A stretch of DNA of 29,674 nucleotides from a virus, in IMG/VR virus record IMGVR_UViG_3300046007_001385, positions 1 through 29,674 of that record. One strand, 5' to 3'. The notes below the pieces were generated by a model that had not been told where the DNA came from, made no database searches, and saw only the letters and a list, made by a program, of their open reading frames with translations. Positions 1 through 29,674 of this stretch are shown here, piece by piece; within the stretch, counting starts at the first letter, position 1, and the number at the start of each line of letters is the position of its first letter. The position numbers and the translations under genes were made by a program.

Positions 1-30
1 AGAGAAGCTCGCCATTCAACTAGCGCCAGA

Positions 31-115
31 CGCTAAACCGCCTAAACCCTTGCGGCGCAATGGATCTCAGCACAGCTACGGCAGGCGGTTTAGCGAGGGT
101 TTAGCATTGGTTTAG
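31..115. promoter_or_regulatory. GGTTTAG iteron cluster, candidate packaging (cosB/pac-like) site
   Basis: Five copies of the heptamer GGTTTAG lie just before the small terminase gene. Three are on the plus strand at 87-93, 98-104 and 109-115, spaced exactly 11 bp apart. Two are on the minus strand at 33-39 and 42-48. A perfect 13-bp inverted repeat (31-43 against 83-95) includes two of them. In lambda, small terminase binds repeated sites between the cleavage site and Nu1, so this is a plausible terminase binding array. An operator or replication iteron set is the alternative. The rest of 1-114 shows no convincing gene or promoter. Confidence 0.55.
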
Positions 116-20831: not shown

Positions 20832-21088
20832 CTGAGCCAACGCACGGCGAGATCCTCCGCGCCATCGGCGTGCTGGAGGGCCAACTCAAGCAGCTGCTGG
20901 ATGCCGCCATCACCGATGTCCGCGAACGCAACAGCATCGGTGAACGTGTCGGCAAGCTTGAAAACAAGATGGCGCAGGTGGTGATCCTCGCCTTTCTCGC
21001 CGCAATGCTCACCCCCATCGCCTGGACCGAAATCAAAGGGGCCTTTGCTTACCGGCAGCCTATGCCCCAACACATGCACCGCCCATGA
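20828..21088 (+). CDS. Single-span coiled-coil membrane protein (XhlA-like layout)
   Basis: 86 residues from GTG 20828 (MTEPTHGEILRAIGVLEGQL). The N-terminal half is helical and charged (LEGQLKQLLDAAITDVRERN, GERVGKLENKM), followed by one membrane helix (AQVVILAFLAAMLTPIAW, about 49-66) and a short histidine/proline-rich end. A cytoplasmic coil followed by one membrane span is the layout of XhlA-type lysis proteins. It overlaps the 47-residue gene by GTGA and the endolysin by ATGA. Role as holin or holin partner is inferred. Confidence 0.55.
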   Translation: MTEPTHGEILRAIGVLEGQLKQLLDAAITDVRERNSIGERVGKLENKMAQVVILAFLAAMLTPIAWTEIKGAFAYRQPMPQHMHRP

Positions 21089-22251
21089 GCTTCCAACCAC
21101 TACGCCTAAGCGATCTGTTTAAGTTCTACCGCGGCCTTCCGCATCAGATGGCCGCCGTAAGTGAATTGGAGGCCGCAATCAACAAGCGTGCGCCGCACAT
21201 CCTGAGCAAGGATCAAGACTGGTTCAAGACCTGGAGCGTCCCAGGCAAGCAGACCGACTTAGCTGATGCGATCCAGCTAATCAAGGAATTTGAAGGCTGC
21301 CATCTTAGCGCCTATCCAGATCCGCTAAGCGGCGGCGATCCGTGGACGATCGGTTATGGCACAACGCGCTATGGCGCTGGTGATCCCGTAAAGCGCGGCG
21401 ACAAGATCAACGTAATCGAGGCCGATATGCTTCTCCGCCTTGAGGTGGACCGCATCGCAGAACGCCTGCGCGCGATCCCGCACTGGGCAAGCATGGCCGA
21501 TCCGCAGCGCTGCGCGTTGATCAGCTTCGCCTACAACCTCGGCACCGGGTTCTATGGCAGCGCTGGCTTCGACGCCATCAGCGCAGCACTCCGTGATAAG
21601 GATTGGCCATCGGTGCCAGCAGCCATGCTGCTCTACCGCAACCCTGGCAGTGCCGTTGAGGCTGGCCTGCTGCGGCGGCGGAAGGCCGAAGGCGCACTCT
21701 GGCAGAAGGGCACACCGCAACCGCAACAGCAGGGCATCCTCCTGCGTGTGCCGTATGAGGCGCAGAATGATAATGCCAGCGGCACCGGCTACCGCGAGTG
21801 TTTCAGCAGCAGCGCTGCCATGGTGGCCAAGTTCTACGGCAAGGTGAGCGGCGACGATGCCTATAACAAGATCCGCGCACGCTTCGGCGACACCACCGAC
21901 GCGCAAGCGCAGATCAAGGCGCTGCAATCCTTAGGACTTACAGCGCGGCTGCGCACCAACTGCAACTCTGCCGTGATCGACACCGAACTGCAGGCTGGTC
22001 GCCCCGTGATGGTCGGCTGGCTGCACAAGGGGCCTGTCGGCGCACCCACAGGCGGCGGCCATTGGTCCGTAATCATCGGAGCAACCAGCGGCGCCTACAT
22101 CCACAACGATCCGAACGGCGAGGCCGACATGGTAAACGGCGGCTACGTCAACCACGCCAAAGGCGCAGGCATCGCCTACAGCCATAAAAACTGGTTGCGC
22201 CGCTGGGAGGTTGATGGCCCCGGTACCGGATGGGCCATGCTGGTGTCATGA
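21085..22251 (+). CDS. Two-domain endolysin: muramidase plus C39-like peptidase
   Basis: 388 residues. The N-terminal leader (about 1-55) is followed by a GH24/T4-type lysozyme domain (about 60-206): LIKEFEGCHLSAYPD gives Glu70 and Asp79 at T4-like spacing, then PWTIGYG with Thr88, and AYNLGTG. The second domain (about 218-388) looks like a C39-type cysteine peptidase: GYRECFSSSAAM (Cys239), GGGHWSVIIGA (His326), HNDPNG (Asp342). The protein should cut glycan strands and possibly the peptide part of peptidoglycan. No signal peptide is visible, so it probably needs the holin candidates upstream. Confidence 0.88.
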   Translation: MSFQPLRLSDLFKFYRGLPHQMAAVSELEAAINKRAPHILSKDQDWFKTWSVPGKQTDLADAIQLIKEFEGCHLSAYPDPLSGGDPWTIGYGTTRYGAGDPVKRGDKINVIEADMLLRLEVDRIAERLRAIPHWASMADPQRCALISFAYNLGTGFYGSAGFDAISAALRDKDWPSVPAAMLLYRNPGSAVEAGLLRRRKAEGALWQKGTPQPQQQGILLRVPYEAQNDNASGTGYRECFSSSAAMVAKFYGKVSGDDAYNKIRARFGDTTDAQAQIKALQSLGLTARLRTNCNSAVIDTELQAGRPVMVGWLHKGPVGAPTGGGHWSVIIGATSGAYIHNDPNGEADMVNGGYVNHAKGAGIAYSHKNWLRRWEVDGPGTGWAMLVS

Positions 22252-22601
22252 CCTGGGCAAAGTGGCTGGTTATTTCATGGTCCATTGAAGAAGAGCTGCG
22301 CATTGAGGCGCAATCACGCGCAGCATTCACGCATGAAAACGCTGATGATATACGCAAACTATGCGCATCAGTCATCAAGCAAAACGCATACCAAGCGCAA
22401 CTGATCAAGCAAGCGACTGCTTATATCTGCGAGCTGGAACTAGCTGCGATGATAAACCAACCGCAGCCGCAATCGGCGCATCGTGCGGCGATGCCGATCG
22501 CCCACCGCGCTGCGCGTTACACCAAGCTCCTTGGACATTTCGTGTTGAGTTTGCTGCGTCGCCCCAATGCCGTAATACCCACAGACGATCTTTCTATCTA
22601 A
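22248..22601 (+). CDS. Small helical protein overlapping the sigma gene, unknown
   Basis: 117 residues from ATG 22248 (ATGA junction with the endolysin). The first 64 residues form a plausible helical protein (MTWAKWLVISWSIEEELRIE, SVIKQNAYQAQLIKQATAYI). The last 53 residues (PQPQSAHRAAMPIAHRAARY...) lie wholly antisense to region 4 of the sigma factor and look unlike the first part. Either the tail is a real overlap or the gene lost its original stop codon. No family recognised. Confidence 0.45.
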   Translation: MTWAKWLVISWSIEEELRIEAQSRAAFTHENADDIRKLCASVIKQNAYQAQLIKQATAYICELELAAMINQPQPQSAHRAAMPIAHRAARYTKLLGHFVLSLLRRPNAVIPTDDLSI

Positions 22602-23306
22602 GTCATTCAACTCCATCAGCGACAACTGCAACTGCTCGCCATACTCCTGGTGCAGCTCTTCAGGTGCTGGTTCATCGGCAATCAAATCGCCTAGCGCTGA
22701 ACCTGTATCGCTTACCTGTTGATCCAAGCTTGAATGCGGAATGTTTCGCATCACGTAGCTTTGCACTTCATGCTGCGTGATGCCAAGTGCATTGGCGCAT
22801 TCAGCAGTTGTCATTGACTTGCCATGCTGTTGCATGTGCTCGCGTTGCAGCTTGGCGATCTTGTACGTCGTATCTAAGATGTGCTGCGGCACACGAATCA
22901 ATCGCTCCTTGGTATCAATCGCGCGTGTGATTGATTGCCGCACCCACCAATAGGCATAGGTGCTGAACTTGTAGCCTTTGGTGCCATCGAACAATTCAAC
23001 AGCGCGATTCAAACCGATGGCACCTTCTTGGATGAGGTCCATCAGTTCCAGGCCATTGCACTTCAATCGAGTGGTGTAACGCTTGGCGATGTGAACCACC
23101 AGCCGCAGGTTGCAGTTCATCATGGTGTCACGCGCGCGCTGGCCGCGTTTGATCGCACGCAGCTCAGCTTTGGTGCGTTCGCCTTTCATCGCTTGCAGTT
23201 CAATCATGCGCCGCACCTGGCGAGATAGCTGGATCTCCTGCTCACCAGTCAATAGCGGGAACCGGCCGATCTCGGCTAGGTAATCCTTCATTGAATCAGC
23301 GCTCAT
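22440..23306 (-). CDS. Phage-encoded RNA polymerase sigma factor (sigma-70, cyanobacterial group 2-like)
   Basis: 288 residues from ATG 23306. It covers region 1.2 (about 4-35: MKDYLAEIGRFPLLTGEQEI), region 2 (about 60-130: NLRLVVHIAKRY, LMDLIQEGAIGLNRAVELFD, YKFSTYAYWWVRQSITRAI), region 3 (about 138-205: RVPQHILDTTYKIAKLQREH) and region 4 (about 225-285: DLDRKIVCGYYG, HTH LGVTRSAVGDRHRRTMRRLR). The style matches cyanobacterial group 2 factors, and region 1.1 is absent. It should bind host core polymerase and direct it to phage promoters. It is the last gene of the leftward operon. Region 2.4 is WWVRQSITRAIDTKE, close to the host consensus, so promoter choice may be near that of the host. Confidence 0.92.
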   Translation of the reverse strand: MSADSMKDYLAEIGRFPLLTGEQEIQLSRQVRRMIELQAMKGERTKAELRAIKRGQRARDTMMNCNLRLVVHIAKRYTTRLKCNGLELMDLIQEGAIGLNRAVELFDGTKGYKFSTYAYWWVRQSITRAIDTKERLIRVPQHILDTTYKIAKLQREHMQQHGKSMTTAECANALGITQHEVQSYVMRNIPHSSLDQQVSDTGSALGDLIADEPAPEELHQEYGEQLQLSLMELNDLDRKIVCGYYGIGATQQTQHEMSKELGVTRSAVGDRHRRTMRRLRLRLVYHRS

Positions 23307-23475
23307 GGTTCAGGTCATCAGTGTTGTCCCATTCAGGCACCAGCGTCGCGCTCAGGAATTGGGTATCGGGGCATAGTTCCTTGGCGCTGGTGATGGCGTG
23401 CGCAAGATCACGGGCCATCAGGTGGAGCGGTGCGGCATGGCTGAAGGCCACGCGGTACAGCTGGAGTGGCTTCAT
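23296..23475 (-). CDS. 59-residue protein, unknown
   Basis: A short gene on the minus strand from ATG 23475 to TGA 23296-23298, overlapping the sigma start by 11 bp and the upstream gene by ATGA. The sequence MKPLQLYRVAFSHAAPLHLM, then ARDLAHAITSAKELCPDTQF and LSATLVPEWD, resembles small phage proteins I have seen in cyanobacterial viruses. It has a mixed beta-alpha-beta pattern. Function unknown. Junctions and coding-like sequence support it as a gene. Confidence 0.6.
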   Translation of the reverse strand: MKPLQLYRVAFSHAAPLHLMARDLAHAITSAKELCPDTQFLSATLVPEWDNTDDLNHER

Positions 23476-23891
23476 GGCACCGGCTCGATGGCGGGGTGGC
23501 CCCAGCGGGCTAAGGCGGCGCGGGCGTAAGGACGCCAGCTCAGGGCTTCACCGCCTTGGTCAATATCAATGAACAGCTCATCCAGTTCCTTATCCGTCGG
23601 ACCCTGCGGCTCGGGCTGGGCGTGTTGCCAGCGGCTGTCGGGATGGCTCAAGATTGCCTCCGCCAACGCAGCAGCGCCTTTGTCGTGGTTGCCGTCAACC
23701 CTACGGATGATTGCAGCCAAACGCAGAATGTCATCTACTTCGGGCATTGGCCCCTGCGGCTCGGGCTGGGCCAGCGCGGCGCGGGCGCGAGCGATAGCAG
23801 CGTTCCAGCATTGCCTCCAGTTGGCGTAATCACCAGGCTCTGCTTGATCTAACTCAACCAGCTCTTGGCACAGCGCACGAAAGTCAGTCAT
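23472..23891 (-). CDS. Modular small protein with two AQPEPQGP linkers, unknown
   Basis: 139 residues from ATG 23891; an upstream start at 23915 would extend across the preceding gene. Three helical modules are visible: TDFRALCQELVELDQ...NAAIARARAAL, then EVDDILRLAAIIRRVDGNHD...AEAILS, then DKELDELFIDIDQGGEALSW...ALARWG. They are joined by two copies of AQPEPQGP, encoded by a 20-bp exact DNA repeat (23602-23621 and 23752-23771). This looks like modules strung together on a shared linker. No enzyme motif is visible. It overlaps neighbours by 4 and 8 bp. Confidence 0.55.
   Translation of the reverse strand: MTDFRALCQELVELDQAEPGDYANWRQCWNAAIARARAALAQPEPQGPMPEVDDILRLAAIIRRVDGNHDKGAAALAEAILSHPDSRWQHAQPEPQGPTDKELDELFIDIDQGGEALSWRPYARAALARWGHPAIEPVP
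23602..23771. repeat. Pair of 20-bp direct repeats encoding AQPEPQGP linkers
   Basis: The same 20 bases (starting CCCTGCGGCT on the plus strand) occur at 23602-23621 and at 23752-23771, 150 bp apart. In the minus-strand gene they encode the two linkers between modules. They could allow module loss or gain by recombination. Confidence 0.8.
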
Positions 23892-24117
23892 TGCCACCCT
23901 CCAGCTCGGCGGCAATGGCTAGGAGTTGATCGCGCACTTTGCAGCGATAACGGATGGCGGCAAGTGATAGCGATCCCTTGTCGATGTCGCCTGGCTCCGG
24001 CACCACCTGATCCGCAGCAGCTCGCAGGGCGGCGGCGGCAATCTCATCGGCAGGCGCAGGGCAAATTTCGCGCACTGCGTCGTACACCGCCTGCGCTTGT
24101 GGTGATAGTTCAGTCAT
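23884..24117 (-). CDS. 77-residue helical protein, unknown
   Basis: ATG 24117 overlaps the upstream stop by 4 bp; its own stop overlaps the next start by 8 bp. The sequence MTELSPQAQAVYDAVREICP, IAAAALRAAADQVVPEPGDI, RDQLLAIAAELEGG is a mostly helical, alanine-rich, acidic pattern that I associate with small proteins of cyanobacteria and their viruses. No catalytic or DNA-binding motif is visible. The function is unknown. Confidence 0.55.
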   Translation of the reverse strand: MTELSPQAQAVYDAVREICPAPADEIAAAALRAAADQVVPEPGDIDKGSLSLAAIRYRCKVRDQLLAIAAELEGGND

Positions 24118-24449
24118 TCAGGTAGCGCCTCCAGTGCGCGACGGATTTGAGATAGGTCGCAGCCTCTGCCGTGCATGGCCAGGTCTGCGTTAAGCGTGTC
24201 GAGCTGAAGCAACGCCTGCTTTTTCAAGCTCGGCGGCTTGGGGCGGCGGGCGGCGCGGAGTGAGTCACCGCATTCCGCATACCCTTGGGTCCACTCACAG
24301 CACGCCTCCAGCTCCTGGTCGGCGCCAGCGGCATAGGCGTGGTTGATCAGCCAAATCTCTCGGGTGACACCTGTATCTCGAATGCCATGTGGAGCTGAGT
24401 TGCGCAGTGATGTCACCAGCTCCGGCGGTGGGGTAATCGAATCAGTCAC
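24114..24449 (-). CDS. 111-residue protein, unknown
   Basis: GTG start at 24449, overlapping the upstream 39-residue gene. Sequence blocks ITPPPELVTSLRN, AYAAGADQELEACCEW and LRAARRPKPPSLKKQALLQL, ending QIRRALEALPE, resemble recurring small cyanobacterial/phage proteins. It shares the modular helical style of the two genes downstream. An accessory role in the early operon is all that can be said. Confidence 0.55.
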   Translation of the reverse strand: MTDSITPPPELVTSLRNSAPHGIRDTGVTREIWLINHAYAAGADQELEACCEWTQGYAECGDSLRAARRPKPPSLKKQALLQLDTLNADLAMHGRGCDLSQIRRALEALPE

Positions 24450-24561
24450 AACAGCACCTCACAACAAAGGCCATGCACATGGTCATCAACGCCAGCCAAG
24501 GATGATTGCCGAGCACCAAACAGGCCGTGGCAATCATCAGTAGCCAGATCAGGTAGTACAT
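24442..24561 (-). CDS. 39-residue membrane peptide, unknown
   Basis: An open frame from ATG 24561, sharing one base with the SSB stop, to TGA 24442-24444, which overlaps the GTG start of the next gene. The product MYYLIWLLMIATACLVLGNH... is nearly all hydrophobic, with one or two membrane segments and a CCCD end. The precise junctions at both sides suggest that it is translated. Function unknown. Confidence 0.5.
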   Translation of the reverse strand: MYYLIWLLMIATACLVLGNHPWLALMTMCMAFVVRCCCD

Positions 24562-24902
24562 CAAAATAAATACTCGTCAGCCTTGACACGCGGCAGGAAC
24601 TCGAACCGTTGCACGCTCAATACGTGCTTGCGGCGTTTGGTGCCAGTGTCTTTGTCCTGCCATTCCTGCATCCGCAGGTTGCCAGATACAAAGATCGAAT
24701 CACCTTTCTTCAGCTTGTCCACGATGATCTCAGCGGTCTTGCCCCATGCTTCAACATCAATCGCATTGTTGATGTATTCGCCGTTTTTGTCTTTGCCTTC
24801 CTGAATGCCACCGCCGAAGTTGCAAACCATAGTGCCGCTTTCAAATGCTTTCAGCTGTGGATCGCTGATGATGCGAACAATGCCGGATGCGTAGAGACTC
24901 AT
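24561..24902 (-). CDS. ssb: Single-stranded DNA-binding protein
   Basis: 113 residues with the OB-fold pattern of SSB: start MSLYASGIVRIISDPQLKAF, then VCNFGGGIQE, NAIDVEAWGKTAEIIVDKLK, KGDSIFVSGNLRMQEWQDKD and HVLSVQRFEFLPR. It is shorter than most bacterial SSBs and lacks the long flexible linker; it ends in ADEYLF, a much reduced version of the acidic, phenylalanine-ended tip that recruits partners. It should coat single strands during recombination and replication. ATG 24902 overlaps the stop of the HTH gene. Confidence 0.85.
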   Translation of the reverse strand: MSLYASGIVRIISDPQLKAFESGTMVCNFGGGIQEGKDKNGEYINNAIDVEAWGKTAEIIVDKLKKGDSIFVSGNLRMQEWQDKDTGTKRRKHVLSVQRFEFLPRVKADEYLF

Positions 24903-25114
24903 GGGTTGATTGGTGTGATGGAGTTGGATTCTTCAAAGGCCAGCACGTCAGCCAGCGGATACTGCACCCGTGGCGTGCCGGCTGGCGTAGCGAGGCGCGG
25001 CAGGGTCACATAGCGTGGTCCCGAACCGCGCGCGCGCTGGCCTTTGATCGTGCTCGGCTTGACGCCCCATCGGGCGGCTAGCTGCTCAGTGGTGAGGTAC
25101 GGCTCAGTCATCAT
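24899..25114 (-). CDS. Small HTH protein (MerR/AlpA/excisionase-like)
   Basis: 71 residues from ATG 25114 (25111 is also possible; 25117 would be TTG). The sequence TEPYLTTEQLAARWGVKPST, IKGQRARGSGPRYVTLPRLA, VQYPLADVLAFEES is the usual helix-turn-helix pattern of MerR-superfamily DNA-binding proteins such as AlpA or excisionases. It may regulate the early operon or bend DNA for recombination. No integrase is visible, so an excisionase role is not supported here. It overlaps bet (11 bp) and ssb (4 bp). Confidence 0.7.
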   Translation of the reverse strand: MMTEPYLTTEQLAARWGVKPSTIKGQRARGSGPRYVTLPRLATPAGTPRVQYPLADVLAFEESNSITPINP

Positions 25115-25859
25115 CAAATGCGCCTAAGTCAGCTGGTACGGTCAGTTCAGCCTCGCGGCTGAGTGCCAGCTGCATCAGCTGATCATTCTGCTCATCGCTT
25201 AGTTCACCCTTGCGGGCCTCCATGCGTGTGGTCAGCTTGGCTAGGTCGTCGATGGTCTTGGCCTTGGCAATGGCAGCCTTGCCAGCTGCAAACAGCTTGG
25301 TATCACCGGCAGGCGTCGGCACTGCCGCCACTGTCACCGGCTCGATCGCCTGCTGCTCCATCTCATCGGTGCTGTAGACGCCGCTGAGGTTGGCGGGGAA
25401 TGCCTTGCGCAGTGCCAATGCCTCCGAGCACTTGGCGATCATTGCGGCTGGCATCTTGGACCACAAGCCCTGGCCGGCGTTGTAATCCGCGAAGCGTGCC
25501 ACGCCGGTGAATGGATGCGATGAACCCTTGCGCCAGATCGTGGTCTTCGCTGCAGCTGGCGGCTTGGCGCTGATCCATACATCAGACCACTGGCCATCAT
25601 CACCGCACCATTCAGTGTGGCTGCCGTCCAGCTCGCCGGTGCGCTCAGCAATGGCGCGCAAGCCATCAATGCCGGCCTGAATGGTCATGCGCCCACTGCG
25701 TCGGATGGCGTAAATCTGCTTTGAGAACGGGTCCAAGCCAGTCCGCTGGCAGGCGTAGGCGAAGAGGCGCAGCTCATCGCTGCTGCAGCCTGGCGCGATG
25801 GTGGTAGCGATCAGCTGCGTCTGCTCTGGTGTCCAGAGCGCAAGGGAGCTAGAAGTCAT
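25104..25859 (-). CDS. bet: Single-strand annealing recombinase, Bet/RecT-type
   Basis: 251 residues starting MTSSSLALWTPEQTQLIATT at 25859. The Bet-family core is visible: SSDELRLFAYACQRTGLDPF, KQIYAIRRSGRMTIQAGIDG, LRAIAERTGELDG, then TTIWRKGSSHPFTGVARFAD, GLWSKMPAAMIAKCSEALAL and RKAFPANLSGVYSTDEM. The C-terminal 80 residues are acidic and helical, ending in FDDD. The frame is open upstream to 26162, but that part is antisense-like shadow within the exonuclease gene. It anneals complementary single strands made by the exonuclease encoded just upstream. Confidence 0.9.
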   Translation of the reverse strand: MTSSSLALWTPEQTQLIATTIAPGCSSDELRLFAYACQRTGLDPFSKQIYAIRRSGRMTIQAGIDGLRAIAERTGELDGSHTEWCGDDGQWSDVWISAKPPAAAKTTIWRKGSSHPFTGVARFADYNAGQGLWSKMPAAMIAKCSEALALRKAFPANLSGVYSTDEMEQQAIEPVTVAAVPTPAGDTKLFAAGKAAIAKAKTIDDLAKLTTRMEARKGELSDEQNDQLMQLALSREAELTVPADLGAFDDD

Positions 25860-26631
25860 CAGATGTGATGGTGTCAGAGGTCTGCAGTGCCCACCGCGGC
25901 AGGCTGATGGTCTGCGTGCTGTAACCGGGCCATTCGCTGATCGCGCGGCAGTCTGCGATGGTGTCCAGGTTCTGCCGCCGCAGCACGATGGCATGATCCA
26001 TGGCGTCGTTGTCCAGCTCGTAGACGCCGACACAGAACGGATAGGTCTTCTCCACTGCGATGAACACAAACCGCCGCGCGAAGGTGCCGGCCTGGTAGTG
26101 ATCGGCCTGCACGTGGTACCGCCAGTGCGCCACCGATCTGGCAAAGCCGGCAGGGCTGGCATCGGTGGTGGTCTTGAGATCTACCAGCGTGTCATTGGTC
26201 ATCCAGTCCGGGCGGCACTTGCAGCGCAGGCCGCTGATCGTGTCATCCCACCAGAAGGACTGTTCAGCCTTGCCGGTCTTGAGCAGCGCAGCAGCATCAG
26301 GATGGCTGCGCACGCTGGCGCTCATGGCCATGGCCTGCTCCATGTCGGCGGCTGACACCGGCTCGATGCCAGCGGCCTCCATCTCAGCAGCAGCGGCCTT
26401 GCCTTCCTTGGTGCGGCGATCGGGCGCAATGCCGTAGCGCGCACTCAGCTCGTCAGGCTCAAGCACTGCGCAATGCACAAGGCTGCCGAGTCGCATGGCC
26501 GCAGTAGGCGGCACCACCGGGCGGTTCGGATCAATGAACCGCTTCCAGTAGTGATAGGGGCTGGCGGCAACAGCGTGCAGATGACTGGCGCTGATCGCCG
26601 GGTCGGCGTGGTACTCGGCGTTGCTGGTCAT
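25849..26631 (-). CDS. RecE-like exonuclease (PD-(D/E)XK)
   Basis: 260 residues. The start (YHADPAISASHLHAVAASPY, HYWKRFID) is typical of the RecE/DUF3799 exonuclease family. The nuclease core has AMRLGSLVHCAVLEPD with His53, Glu124 (KAEQSFWW), Asp142 (CRPDWM), Asp151-Leu-Lys153 (LVDLKTTTDA) and HVQADHYQAG. It should degrade the 5' strand of double-stranded ends to feed the Bet protein. Its stop overlaps the Bet start by 11 bp, and its start overlaps the upstream stop by 4 bp. Confidence 0.85.
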   Translation of the reverse strand: MTSNAEYHADPAISASHLHAVAASPYHYWKRFIDPNRPVVPPTAAMRLGSLVHCAVLEPDELSARYGIAPDRRTKEGKAAAAEMEAAGIEPVSAADMEQAMAMSASVRSHPDAAALLKTGKAEQSFWWDDTISGLRCKCRPDWMTNDTLVDLKTTTDASPAGFARSVAHWRYHVQADHYQAGTFARRFVFIAVEKTYPFCVGVYELDNDAMDHAIVLRRQNLDTIADCRAISEWPGYSTQTISLPRWALQTSDTITSDDF

Positions 26632-26822
26632 GCGTTACCTCGCGCTTGGCGGTGGAGGAACGTCTGCGGGCCGTAGCACTGCTGCAGCTCCGGGAATGCC
26701 AGCAGCAGGCGCTGGCGGTTGCTGGGGTCAGCGTGAAGCCCAGCATCAGCAAGGCGGCGCATAAAGCCACCGCCGTATGCGATGGCAGCCTGAAGCGTCC
26801 AGTAGGAATCAGAGGAGGTCAT
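26628..26822 (-). CDS. 64-residue protein, unknown
   Basis: ATG 26822 overlaps the stop of the upstream micro-gene (ATGA), and its stop overlaps the exonuclease start. The sequence MTSSDSYWTLQAAIAYGGGF, MRRLADAGLHADPSNRQRLL, LAFPELQQCYGP has a helical, basic pattern common in small phage proteins placed near recombination genes. A longer frame to 26984 exists, but its extra part lies in other genes. Function unknown. Confidence 0.6.
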   Translation of the reverse strand: MTSSDSYWTLQAAIAYGGGFMRRLADAGLHADPSNRQRLLLAFPELQQCYGPQTFLHRQARGNA

Positions 26823-26935
26823 TTGCGGATGTAGGACTGCGTGCCGGAATGAGTGGCGGGTGGGACGTCGGCGGCCTGAATGCCAATGAATGCAACAGTG
26901 GCCGCGGCGATCAGGAAGCAGATGGCGTTGCTCAT
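26819..26935 (-). CDS. 38-residue membrane or secreted peptide, unknown
   Basis: From ATG 26935 to TGA 26819-26821, overlapping both neighbours by 4 bp. The product MSNAICFLIAAATVAFIGIQ... has an N-terminal hydrophobic helix and a polar tail (PPATHSGTQSYIRK). It could be a membrane micro-protein or a secreted peptide. Nothing more can be said from sequence. Confidence 0.5.
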   Translation of the reverse strand: MSNAICFLIAAATVAFIGIQAADVPPATHSGTQSYIRK

Positions 26936-27108
26936 GCCAGCACCTTGCGGACGGCGTAACGGCTGCAGCACAGACGATCAGCAATACACCGCTGGCTCAT
27001 GCCTTGCTTGTGCCAGCGGCGGATGCGCTGCTCGCGGCTCTCGGTGAGCCAGAGGATGACAGCTACTACCAGCAGCAGAGGCAGCAGCAGGTAAAAGATT
27101 GGTTCCAT
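26932..27108 (-). CDS. 58-residue membrane-anchored HTH protein
   Basis: ATG 27108 gives a hydrophobic N-terminal helix (MEPIFYLLLPLLLVVAVILW) followed directly by a basic helix and a resolvase/transposase-like HTH: REQRIRRWHKQGMSQRCIAD, RLCCSRYAVRKVLA. The frame is open further back to 27156, but ATG 27108 gives the clean membrane start. A membrane helix with a DNA-binding-like domain is an unusual pairing in so short a protein. It might tether phage DNA or a regulator to the membrane, but this is speculation. Confidence 0.55.
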   Translation of the reverse strand: MEPIFYLLLPLLLVVAVILWLTESREQRIRRWHKQGMSQRCIADRLCCSRYAVRKVLA

Positions 27109-27152
27109 GGTTGGGGTCGCAATGAAGGCGGGACTCTTGCCCCGTGCAACCA

Positions 27153-27506
27153 TCATACACCCTGCGCATCCCCTGTCAACCGTGCCGCATCCTCAACGCT
27201 GCGCGCGACGCCGGCGATGCCGCCTGCTGCCTGCACCGCCTCCAGCCATTGCCGCTGCTCCGGGCGCAATCGGCCGCTGGCGCTCTTCACCTCGATGCTG
27301 GTGAATACGGCCACCTGCTGGCCCACCATGTCCGGCGTGATCGTGCGCGTGGTCCAGCCGATCAGATCAGCGCTGCCAACCGCCAGGCCAAACTGCACCG
27401 GGCGGCCATGCTGGTCACGCAGTGTGCCGGTGTTGTTGCGGTAGAGGCGCACCGGGCCGCGGCTGAGGGCAAGGCGGATGTGCTGCTGGATCTGTTGCTC
27501 GGTCAA
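27153..27506 (-). CDS. VRR-NUC domain nuclease
   Basis: 117 residues from TTG 27506, which overlaps the helicase stop (TTGA). The whole protein is one VRR-NUC domain, as in the short phage forms: RLYRNNTGTLRDQHGRPVQF, GSADLIG (Asp47), IEVKSASGRLRPEQRQWLEA (Glu72, Lys74, Gln84) and AGGIAGVARSVEDA. These are the catalytic metal-binding residues of the PD-(D/E)XK superfamily. Related proteins act on branched DNA, so a role in resolving recombination or packaging intermediates is likely. A 44-bp gap to the next gene is the largest in this operon. Confidence 0.87.
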   Translation of the reverse strand: MTEQQIQQHIRLALSRGPVRLYRNNTGTLRDQHGRPVQFGLAVGSADLIGWTTRTITPDMVGQQVAVFTSIEVKSASGRLRPEQRQWLEAVQAAGGIAGVARSVEDAARLTGDAQGV

Positions 27507-28849
27507 GCGATGCCATGCCTCTTCGCCAGTCTGGCCTGGTACACCCTCTCAGCCCAGCCGCGTTTATAGCCGCGTTTCTGCGCTAGCTGGCGGAGATCCT
27601 CCAGTGACTGCGCGGTGCCTTGCTGGCGTTTGCGTTGGCGGGCGGCCATCTCTACCAGCTGCCCGTCCACCTGCTCCAGCTCGCGCACCTCAGCGGCAAA
27701 CGTATGCCCGCACTCGCCGCACACCCGCGCCTGGCTGGCCATCGCGGCGTAGCACTTCGGGCAGACCTTGACCGATGGCGCCTTCTCGCGGTCTTGTTTT
27801 TTCAGGCCCTCCAGTGTCCACTCTCGCGGCTCCAGGTGATGCCCTAGCCGCAGGCAGTTGCCTACATGGTCGAGCACCACAGCCACCTTGCTGCCAGATG
27901 GTCGCAAGCATCGGCCGATCATCTGCAGGTGGAGGCCCACGCTGGCCGTGGGTCGCAGCATGATGCAGCCGCCCACGCTCGGCACGTCCACCCCTTCACC
28001 GATCAATGCGCAGGAAGTCAGTATCTTGATCTTGTTAGCGCCCAGCTGTTTCAGCAGGTGGCGCCTGGTGACGGCATCCATGGTGCCGTCGATACTGGCG
28101 GCAGCAATGCCGCTGGCATTAAACAATGCCGCCACTGCCTCGGCGTGCGCCACGCTGCAGCAGAACGCGATGGCGGTCTGACCGCTCAGGTGCTGCCGGT
28201 AGTGGCTCACGCAGTCGCCATGGATTGCCCGCACCTGCTGTTCCGCGTCGCGCTGGTCGAAGTCACCCATCCGCTTGCGCATCCCGGCAACGCTGAAGCC
28301 CGGCGGTGCCAGCACCCGCGCAGCTGCTAGGTAGCCGTTGTCGGTCAACCACTGCGCGCTCGGGCCTTCGACCATGGCCTGGTAATGCTCGCCAAGGCCC
28401 CGGCCATCACCGCGGATCGGCGTTGCTGTCACCCCCAACAGCTTGGCGGTGTTGAAGTGCTCCACCACTGCCGCCCACGTGCCAGCCGTGGTGTGGTGGG
28501 CCTCGTCCACCACGATCAGCTGGAACATGTCCCGCGGCAGCAGGTGCAGTCGCCGCGCCACGGTTTGGACGCTGGCCACCTGAACCGCATGGCTCAAGTC
28601 CATGGCGCGATTGGCGGCGATGATGCCGTGGTGCATCGGCAGGCTGCGGCTGGCCTGATCCAGCAGCTCCGCGCGATGCACCAAGATCAGCACGCGGTTG
28701 CCTTTGCGGCTGGCAGCATCAGCGATGTAGGCAAAACAGACGGTCTTGCCGCCACCAGTGGGCAGCACCGCCAGCACGCTGCGCTTGCCCAGCTGGTACT
28801 GCAAGCGGATGTCGGTTACCAGCTGCTGCTGGTAGGGGCGGAGGGTCAT
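27503..28849 (-). CDS. SF2 DEAD/DEAH-box helicase with zinc ribbon
   Basis: 448 residues. Motifs: Q-like LRPYQQQL at the start, Walker A LPTGGGKT (about 29-36), DEAH box VVDEAHH (about 113-119), TATP (141-144), and motif VI QMIGRCLRPS (309-318). A zinc ribbon follows, CPKC (363/366) and CGEC (377/380), then a basic helical C-terminus (QRKRQQGTAQSLEDLRQLAQ). The arrangement resembles UvrB/RecG-like phage helicases rather than replicative DnaB types. It should unwind DNA or remodel recombination intermediates. It sits between the methyltransferase and VRR-NUC genes with ATGA/TTGA overlaps. Confidence 0.9.
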   Translation of the reverse strand: MTLRPYQQQLVTDIRLQYQLGKRSVLAVLPTGGGKTVCFAYIADAASRKGNRVLILVHRAELLDQASRSLPMHHGIIAANRAMDLSHAVQVASVQTVARRLHLLPRDMFQLIVVDEAHHTTAGTWAAVVEHFNTAKLLGVTATPIRGDGRGLGEHYQAMVEGPSAQWLTDNGYLAAARVLAPPGFSVAGMRKRMGDFDQRDAEQQVRAIHGDCVSHYRQHLSGQTAIAFCCSVAHAEAVAALFNASGIAAASIDGTMDAVTRRHLLKQLGANKIKILTSCALIGEGVDVPSVGGCIMLRPTASVGLHLQMIGRCLRPSGSKVAVVLDHVGNCLRLGHHLEPREWTLEGLKKQDREKAPSVKVCPKCYAAMASQARVCGECGHTFAAEVRELEQVDGQLVEMAARQRKRQQGTAQSLEDLRQLAQKRGYKRGWAERVYQARLAKRHGIA

Positions 28850-29674
28850 ACCAGCTCTCCCTGCTTATGCGATTCGACTGCGGTCAGGTTCTTTACCGCG
28901 CAGTTGAAGTAGCTGGGCTTCAGCTCAAAGCCGACAAACTGCCGCCCCATCTGCAAGCTGACATAACCCTCGCTGCCGATACCGGCGAATGGGCTCAGCA
29001 CCACGTCGCCGGGATTGCTCCACAGCTGCAGGCCGCGACGGATCACCTCCAGCTGCAATGGGCAGATGTGCCGCTCATCCTCATTGGCGCGAGCGCTGCG
29101 GTATTGGAGCGTGTCCGATGGGTTGATGTCCATCCACACCGGGCTGGCATAACGCTGCCAGATGTTGATGCTGTCCTTGATCGCATCGCCAGTCTTGGCC
29201 GGTGGATCCTCGCCAGCGAACTCAGTAAACGGTCCAGCGCACGGCTCAGGATTGTCGCCAAGCTTGCGCACCGTTACCAGATAGTCAGGGATGCCCTGGC
29301 GGCTGAGGGCCGAGTCCTTGCGAATCTGCTTGTGCAGCAGTCCGATCGCTTTCGTGCGCTGCATTGCGGTCACCGGATCCTTCCAGATGCAGACCTCGGA
29401 ATGAAATACGAAGCCAGCAGCCTGAAAGATGCGCAGCATGTCGCCGCGAAAGTCCTTCACACCAATGAACCCATCGCGCTCTTTGCTGCTAGGCAGGTTC
29501 ATGCAATGGAAGCTGATCAGTCTGCCGGGCATCATCACGCGATGTAACTCCTTGGCCAAGTAAACGAAGTGATCGAAGAACTCCTGATCGTTGCGACTGT
29601 TGCCCATGTCGCGGTCGCTATTTGAGTAGGTATAAAGCGACGCGAACGGCGGGCTGAAGATGCTGTAGTGGATA
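28846..29674 (-). CDS. DNA N4/N6 methyltransferase, 5' end outside the window (partial)
   Basis: The open frame continues to the window edge, so the N-terminus is missing; an ATG at 29607 is internal. The first visible residues include SIFSPPFASLYTYS, whose SPPF matches catalytic motif IV of amino-methyltransferases. The SAM-binding motif (LSPFAGIGSEGYVSLQMGRQ, FVGFELKPSYF) comes near the C-terminus, the beta-class order. It should methylate adenine or cytosine exocyclic amino groups, probably to protect phage DNA. No matching restriction gene is visible. It overlaps the helicase start by ATGA. Confidence 0.9.
   Translation of the reverse strand, partial: IHYSIFSPPFASLYTYSNSDRDMGNSRNDQEFFDHFVYLAKELHRVMMPGRLISFHCMNLPSSKERDGFIGVKDFRGDMLRIFQAAGFVFHSEVCIWKDPVTAMQRTKAIGLLHKQIRKDSALSRQGIPDYLVTVRKLGDNPEPCAGPFTEFAGEDPPAKTGDAIKDSINIWQRYASPVWMDINPSDTLQYRSARANEDERHICPLQLEVIRRGLQLWSNPGDVVLSPFAGIGSEGYVSLQMGRQFVGFELKPSYFNCAVKNLTAVESHKQGELV

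Follow-up and report, generated by a model that had tools for sequence, protein, structure and literature searches.

A lambda-like siphovirus of picocyanobacteria carries, as the last gene of its early operon, a complete sigma factor that belongs to a phage clade apart from the sigma factors of cyanobacteria. In this protein the reader of the promoter -10 element is unchanged and two residues of the -35 reader have been replaced, although close relatives keep both. We consider it probable that such a sigma, made from the early operon, binds the host core enzyme and redirects the polymerase to later phage promoters, and the protein described here may steer it to promoters that are poorly read by host sigmas.

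Sigma factors of this kind are already known from isolated cyanosiphoviruses, where earlier authors noted their genes (PMC6157547, PMC3751600), and the paper on phage P-SS2 proposed that a phage sigma modulates host polymerase in a sigma-based switch (PMC2784084). New here are the separation of a phage clade from the host sigmas, the loss from the -35 helix of the equivalents of E585 and R588 of Escherichia coli sigma70, and a conserved promoter at the head of the gene chain that the sigma gene closes.

Results

Genome layout and position of the sigma gene

The window, by which we mean the whole stretch of DNA analysed, is a viral contig of 29,674 bases from a cos-type phage. Its plus-strand late genes converge on a minus-strand chain that ends with the sigma gene (Table 1). 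An earlier note on this DNA had called the phage lambda-like, which holds for the head module, with its gpA-type terminase, lambda-family portal and capsid, and had placed the sigma gene at the end of the early operon, where we also find it, last in the minus-strand chain and behind a canonical promoter of host type. The window contains an excisionase-like gene and no recognisable integrase gene. In the endolysin (21085-22251, plus strand), a papain-like cysteine peptidase domain (Peptidase_C70/C39_2) comes after a phage lysozyme domain. Beyond the endolysin gene, a plus-strand open reading frame of 123 amino acids (22230-22601), for which PHROGs gave no match, overlaps the 3' end of the sigma gene on the opposite strand by 162 bp with its own 3' part; small convergent open reading frames likewise abut or overlap the 3' end of the sigma gene in phages S-CBS1, KBS-S-2A and S-LBS1.

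Table 1. Positions of features in the window and, in the last three rows, in related contigs.
Feature	Position	Strand	Remarks
Cos-proximal left end	1-114	+	Inverted repeats CTAAACCGCC...GGCGGTTTAG just before terS
Rightward (late) block	115-22251	+	TerS, gpA-type TerL, head-tail, lambda-family portal, capsid, tail, endolysin
Terminator-like hairpin	22296-22313	-	Just past the sigma stop codon; weak, such matches being at chance level regionally
Phage sigma factor gene	22440-23306	-	Regions 1.2-2-3-4; single open frame, 288 aa
Region 4.2 recognition helix	22491-22517	-	aa 264-272, TRSAVGDRH; E. coli sigma70 583-591, TRERIRQIE
Region 2.4 (-10 reading)	22884-22976	-	aa 111-141; conserved residues GYKFSTYAYWWVRQSITRAID as in host sigmas (alignment)
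Minus-strand early block, whole	29607 down to 22440	-	Sigma gene last
Early chain between promoter and sigma	23296-27152	-	Genes abutting or overlapping
SSB	24561-24902	-	Small ORFs in same chain
Excisionase-like small DNA-binding protein	24899-25117	-
RecT-like annealing protein	within 25104-26162	-
DUF3799/PDDEXK exonuclease	25849-26631	-
Canonical sigma70 promoter	27152-27179	-	TTGACA-N16-TATGAT, upstream of sigma-ending chain; 0 in 100 shuffles
VRR-NUC endonuclease	27153-27506	-
Helicase	27503-28849	-
DNA methylase	28846-29607	-
35-bp dyad before primase	L246 7290-7324; L181 4366-4400		Also L203, G001, G002, L247, L061, L068, L045
Primase-clamp noncoding island	L246 4450-4700; L181 7035-7320	L246: -	Also G001 (L334), L252, L281, L265
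DNA polymerase III beta-type clamp	L181 7521-8558		Rightward operon; all three Pfam domains

At least 12 contigs with TerL proteins 92-100% identical begin at one and the same base about 647 bp ahead of terL, with GGTAAGTTC or a sequence close to it; this start is common to the window and the contigs L166-L210, and other contigs read across the point. Since independent contigs start at the same base we take it for the cos end, the window beginning about 6 bp inside it. The inverted repeats CTAAACCGCC and GGCGGTTTAG ahead of terS resemble terminase-binding sites. A relative complete from cos to cos (G001, 34,577 bases), together with the overlapping kin L181 and L246, supplies the right end that is absent from the window. 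Its plus strand carries genes for a primase-helicase and a phage-encoded DNA polymerase III beta-type clamp and a further gene, and they lead across cos into terS. Judged from these kin, the start of the rightward operon lies some 5-6 kb ahead of terS on the circular map, in sequence that the window lacks.

The sigma protein and its relatives

Four Pfam sigma-70 domains follow one another in the protein, all above their gathering scores: region 1.2 (amino acids 4-34), region 2 (63-134), region 3 (146-215) and region 4 (230-280). PHROGs place it in phrog_351, RNA polymerase sigma factor, and the best NCBIfam model is TIGR02997, the cyanobacterial RpoD/SigA family (E 4.9e-77), although its score of 259.1 bits lies under the model cut-off of 384.5. 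An AlphaFold2 model (mean pLDDT 79.8) matched sigma chains of RNA polymerase in Foldseek (E 1e-15); as a whole it superposes badly on them (rmsd about 23), presumably since the positions of the domains are free without the core enzyme, and the helix-turn-helix helices 253-260 and 264-286 are predicted to be intact. The gene is under purifying selection, with dN/dS of about 0.09-0.12 in comparison with L010 and L011 and near 0.2 for more distant pairs, and in region 4 this selection is weaker than over the whole gene yet present. That the phage carries a complete sigma factor, as the earlier note had it, is thus borne out by the frame, the domains and the selection on them, and homology leads us to expect that the protein, in which the core-binding regions are retained, binds core RNA polymerase.

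A scan of viral contigs yielded at least 599 relatives. Both the family (PHROG 351) and the tree (in its final form without S-LBS1) place the protein with the sigmas of isolated phages, to which it is 47% (S-CBS1), 43% (KBS-S-2A), 42% (S-CBS3) and 32% (S-LBS1) identical. In S-CBS1 (gp27), KBS-S-2A (CPKG_00011) and S-LBS1 (A33) the gene directly follows the endolysin at the end of the leftward operon, as in the window, whereas in S-CBS3 (gp29) it lies near this slot rather than in it; the genomes of S-CBS1, S-CBS3 and S-LBS1 are of lambda type and similar to that of the window phage. The place of the sigma gene in the early operon is constant across genomes that are otherwise mosaic. Two relatives with TerL 77% identical, G012 (L341/L342) and G014 (L343-L345), have no sigma gene in their records of 35-41 kb, and in G012 a tyrosine integrase occupies the convergent slot just after the endolysin. 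From its description, ORF113 of the Prochlorococcus siphovirus P-SS2 is also a siphovirus-borne group 2 sigma (PMC2784084); that genome is larger and its sigma stands at a different position.

A phage clade apart from host sigmas

We carried out the phylogeny with host sigma factors that the earlier note had suggested, leaving the -35 helix columns out of the alignment. The 43 phage sigmas form a single clade separated from 33 cyanobacterial sigmas of groups 1 and 2 by a branch with support 98/95, and the window sigma lies within an eight-row clade (100/98). It therefore stands outside the host group 2 radiation, and the separate phage clade rejects a recent capture from a host. The phage rows were picked by similarity to the window protein, which biases the sample towards its lineage. 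As far as the sequences go, the tree shows a long phage history for that lineage and does not imply one origin for every cyanophage sigma. Region 4 of the deposited S-LBS1 sigma (L005 21999-22952) is strongly diverged, and the protein ends in a long and unusual tail; these features give it a very long branch (about 3 changes per column in the first tree), and it was excluded from the final tree. The concern that the gene is present only as a host gene, on a contaminating contig, is ruled out by phage genes on both sides, by the same arrangement in more than 10 related viral contigs and by an identity of only about 42% to the closest bacterial gene among the matches listed.

Residues that read the promoter

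Amino acids 53-280 of the window sigma align with residues 370-599 of E. coli RpoD (4jk1_X). In region 2.4 the equivalents of F427, Y430, W433, W434, Q437 and T440 are all present (FSTYAYWWVRQSITR), and this sequence is host-like in every aligned row. The recognition helix of region 4.2 differs: residues 265, 266 and 269 correspond to R584, E585 and R588, of which the first is kept and the others are replaced by S266 and G269. R584 and E585 of sigma70 contact -35 bases, and substitutions of E585 and R588 relax -35 specificity at -33 (PMC2613000).

S266 and G269 are invariant in the window clade (8 of 8 rows), whereas every host row (33 of 33) has E or D at 585 and R at 588. The same positions are changed in other ways in a second phage lineage (L346 and L351, and by inspection also L386 and L390-L392), and the tree requires two independent changes of the helix. 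Because most of the phage clade keeps the RER-RQ pattern, as do S-CBS1 and KBS-S-2A (S-CBS3 has REAIRQ), altered -35 reading is not a general property of these sigmas. For the window sigma, the two substitutions predict that TTGACA would be read in other than the usual way.

These residues also bear on how the protein should be classed. With the cyanobacterial group 2 sigmas (TIGR02997, SigB-E type) it shares regions 1.2-4, the AYWW of region 2.4 and about 40-42% identity; those sigmas keep the equivalents of E585 and R588, and the window sigma has neither. The earlier labels "cyanobacterial-type" and "group 2-like" stand, but the separate clade and the two lost -35 residues set the protein apart from a plain group 2 sigma. 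Strict membership of host group 2 fails on three features: the pair E/D585 and R588, the TIGR02997 cut-off and the placement in the tree.

Promoters in the window and its kin

The promoter ahead of the sigma-ending chain is the only near-perfect sigma70 promoter in the window and is conserved at the corresponding place in L007, L013, L014, L015, L016, L181, L247, G001 and G002. All 14 of the close-kin contigs, whose records reach 1.9-4.3 kb upstream of terL, lack a promoter of that strength on the plus strand of this stretch, and so do the 5.6 kb ahead of terL in G001. Canonical promoters are very rare in these genomes, at one or two per 30-35 kb (at least 10 of 12 matches). Ten of 13 terL relatives at 77-80% identity also have no canonical promoter upstream of terL; several of them have no sigma gene, so that little can be concluded from a missing sigma70 promoter. 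The earlier note had remarked that the late operon shows no obvious promoter, and our scan of the window likewise found no convincing one, but the observation says little, mainly because the right end is incomplete and the rightward operon starts outside the window.

Promoter scans of the window and its kin found no target promoter for the sigma. A TATAAT upstream of the sigma gene in L016 and G001 was rejected, as it is not conserved in the closest kin of the window. Of the promoter-like elements where the rightward operon of the kin begins, the best conserved is a 35-bp dyad, TTGC-N6-TA-N11-TA-N6-GCAA, lying between the divergent operons and before the primase, which can be read as a pair of divergent promoters that overlap (TTGCNN-N17-TANNNT on either strand). 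Phage loci contain eleven distinct forms of it, whereas 1.35 Mb of host DNA gave a single match, which is not palindromic. Phages with canonical -35 helices and those with altered ones share the same dyad; as it does not track the sigma helix, we have downgraded it as a target, and it is more likely a bidirectional early promoter or operator read by the host. Each of these genomes has one AT-rich noncoding island, TATNTATA, which lies in the gap between the primase and clamp genes and keeps its position in the kin. As a late promoter it is a weak candidate, and it could equally well be the AT-rich unwinding element of an origin. Short repeats are found in the same gap, the word differing by phage (GTTAGG, GTAAG, TTTGCGTCCGCCT, GGTAGGAC).

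Discussion

In the mechanism that we favour, host polymerase with its own sigma would transcribe the early operon from position 27179 on the minus strand. The phage sigma, produced from the last gene of this operon, would bind host core RNA polymerase, and the resulting enzyme would move to later (middle or late) phage promoters with an ordinary -10 element and a -35 element that is non-canonical or dispensable. Redirection of host polymerase to late genes, suggested in the earlier note, is thereby kept as the most economical reading, although the target promoter was not found. Such a sigma switch would take the place of Q-type antitermination in lambda: Q occupies the same regulatory place, as an early product that opens the late genes, but acts by antitermination, whereas the phage sigma would act by initiation. 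An early-made sigma that switches transcription is the general logic of the late sigmas of SPO1 or T4.

The likeness to the T4 late sigma gp55, which acts with the gp45 sliding clamp, is an analogy of working only, in that a phage sigma is made before the late genes. gp55 lacks region 4, which the window sigma has, and the tail of the latter, LRLVYHRS, is without a clamp motif. The kin of the window do encode their own beta-type clamp. Sigmas of the KBS-S-2A lineage (L004, which is KBS-S-2A itself, L066, L075 and L077) end in QLPLIP, QLTLVQ or QLTLIQ, resembling beta-clamp binding motifs, and a C-terminal tail of this kind occurs in none of 110 host sigma sequences. By analogy, clamp-coupled transcription as in T4 is possible in this lineage.

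A more far-reaching version of the switch can be offered only tentatively. The later promoters might form a private class, with a normal -10 element and a -35 element that is absent or unread by host sigmas, serving as an exclusive switch for the late genes. At least two cyanophage lineages would then have recoded the -35 helix independently, as different dialects, and in some lineages the switch would perhaps be coupled to the clamp as in T4, given the beta clamp of the kin and the QLTLVQ-like tails of KBS-S-2A type.

The protein might instead be an ordinary helper of group 2 type, which reads the canonical promoters of the host, raises the supply of a sigma loyal to the phage and takes polymerase away from the host. 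The host-like region 2.4 and the RER-RQ kept by most relatives would fit, and canonical promoters are what the authors of the P-SS2 paper assumed for their group 2 sigma (PMC2784084). We nevertheless think a helper role rather unlikely for the window sigma, in whose lineage the loss of both the E585 and R588 equivalents is fixed, and in whose genomes there is hardly a canonical promoter for it to read.

It is less plausible still, and in our judgement improbable, that the sigma acts mainly on host genes, for example as a stress-type auxiliary gene that keeps the host metabolically supportive, with the late genes of the phage left to the host sigma. Its ancestry is cyanobacterial, and the group 2 sigmas of hosts are alternative factors that are not essential (PMC5780444); moreover, in cyanophage Ma-LMM01 every expression class includes SigA-like promoters, so that a host sigma can serve late genes (PMC5780444). 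Against a role of this kind stand the long vertical history within one phage clade, the fixed position in the early operon across mosaic genomes, and a re-shaped -35 helix that is found in none of the host rows. The loss of canonical -35 helix residues independently in two phage lineages might suggest that the protein is decaying, or cannot initiate transcription and does no more than compete for core enzyme. We regard this as very improbable: purifying selection acts on the gene as a whole and, though more weakly, on region 4, S266 and G269 are invariant in the clade, and the helix-turn-helix is predicted to be intact.

Redirection to later phage promoters thus seems to us the probable function of this sigma. 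With cyanosiphovirus sigmas annotated in several isolate genomes, a defined residue change turns promoter reading into a testable question. If private promoters are indeed read, these phages would offer a simple orthogonal transcription system for cyanobacteria, and an example of a regulatory switch by which lambda-type phages can do without antitermination.
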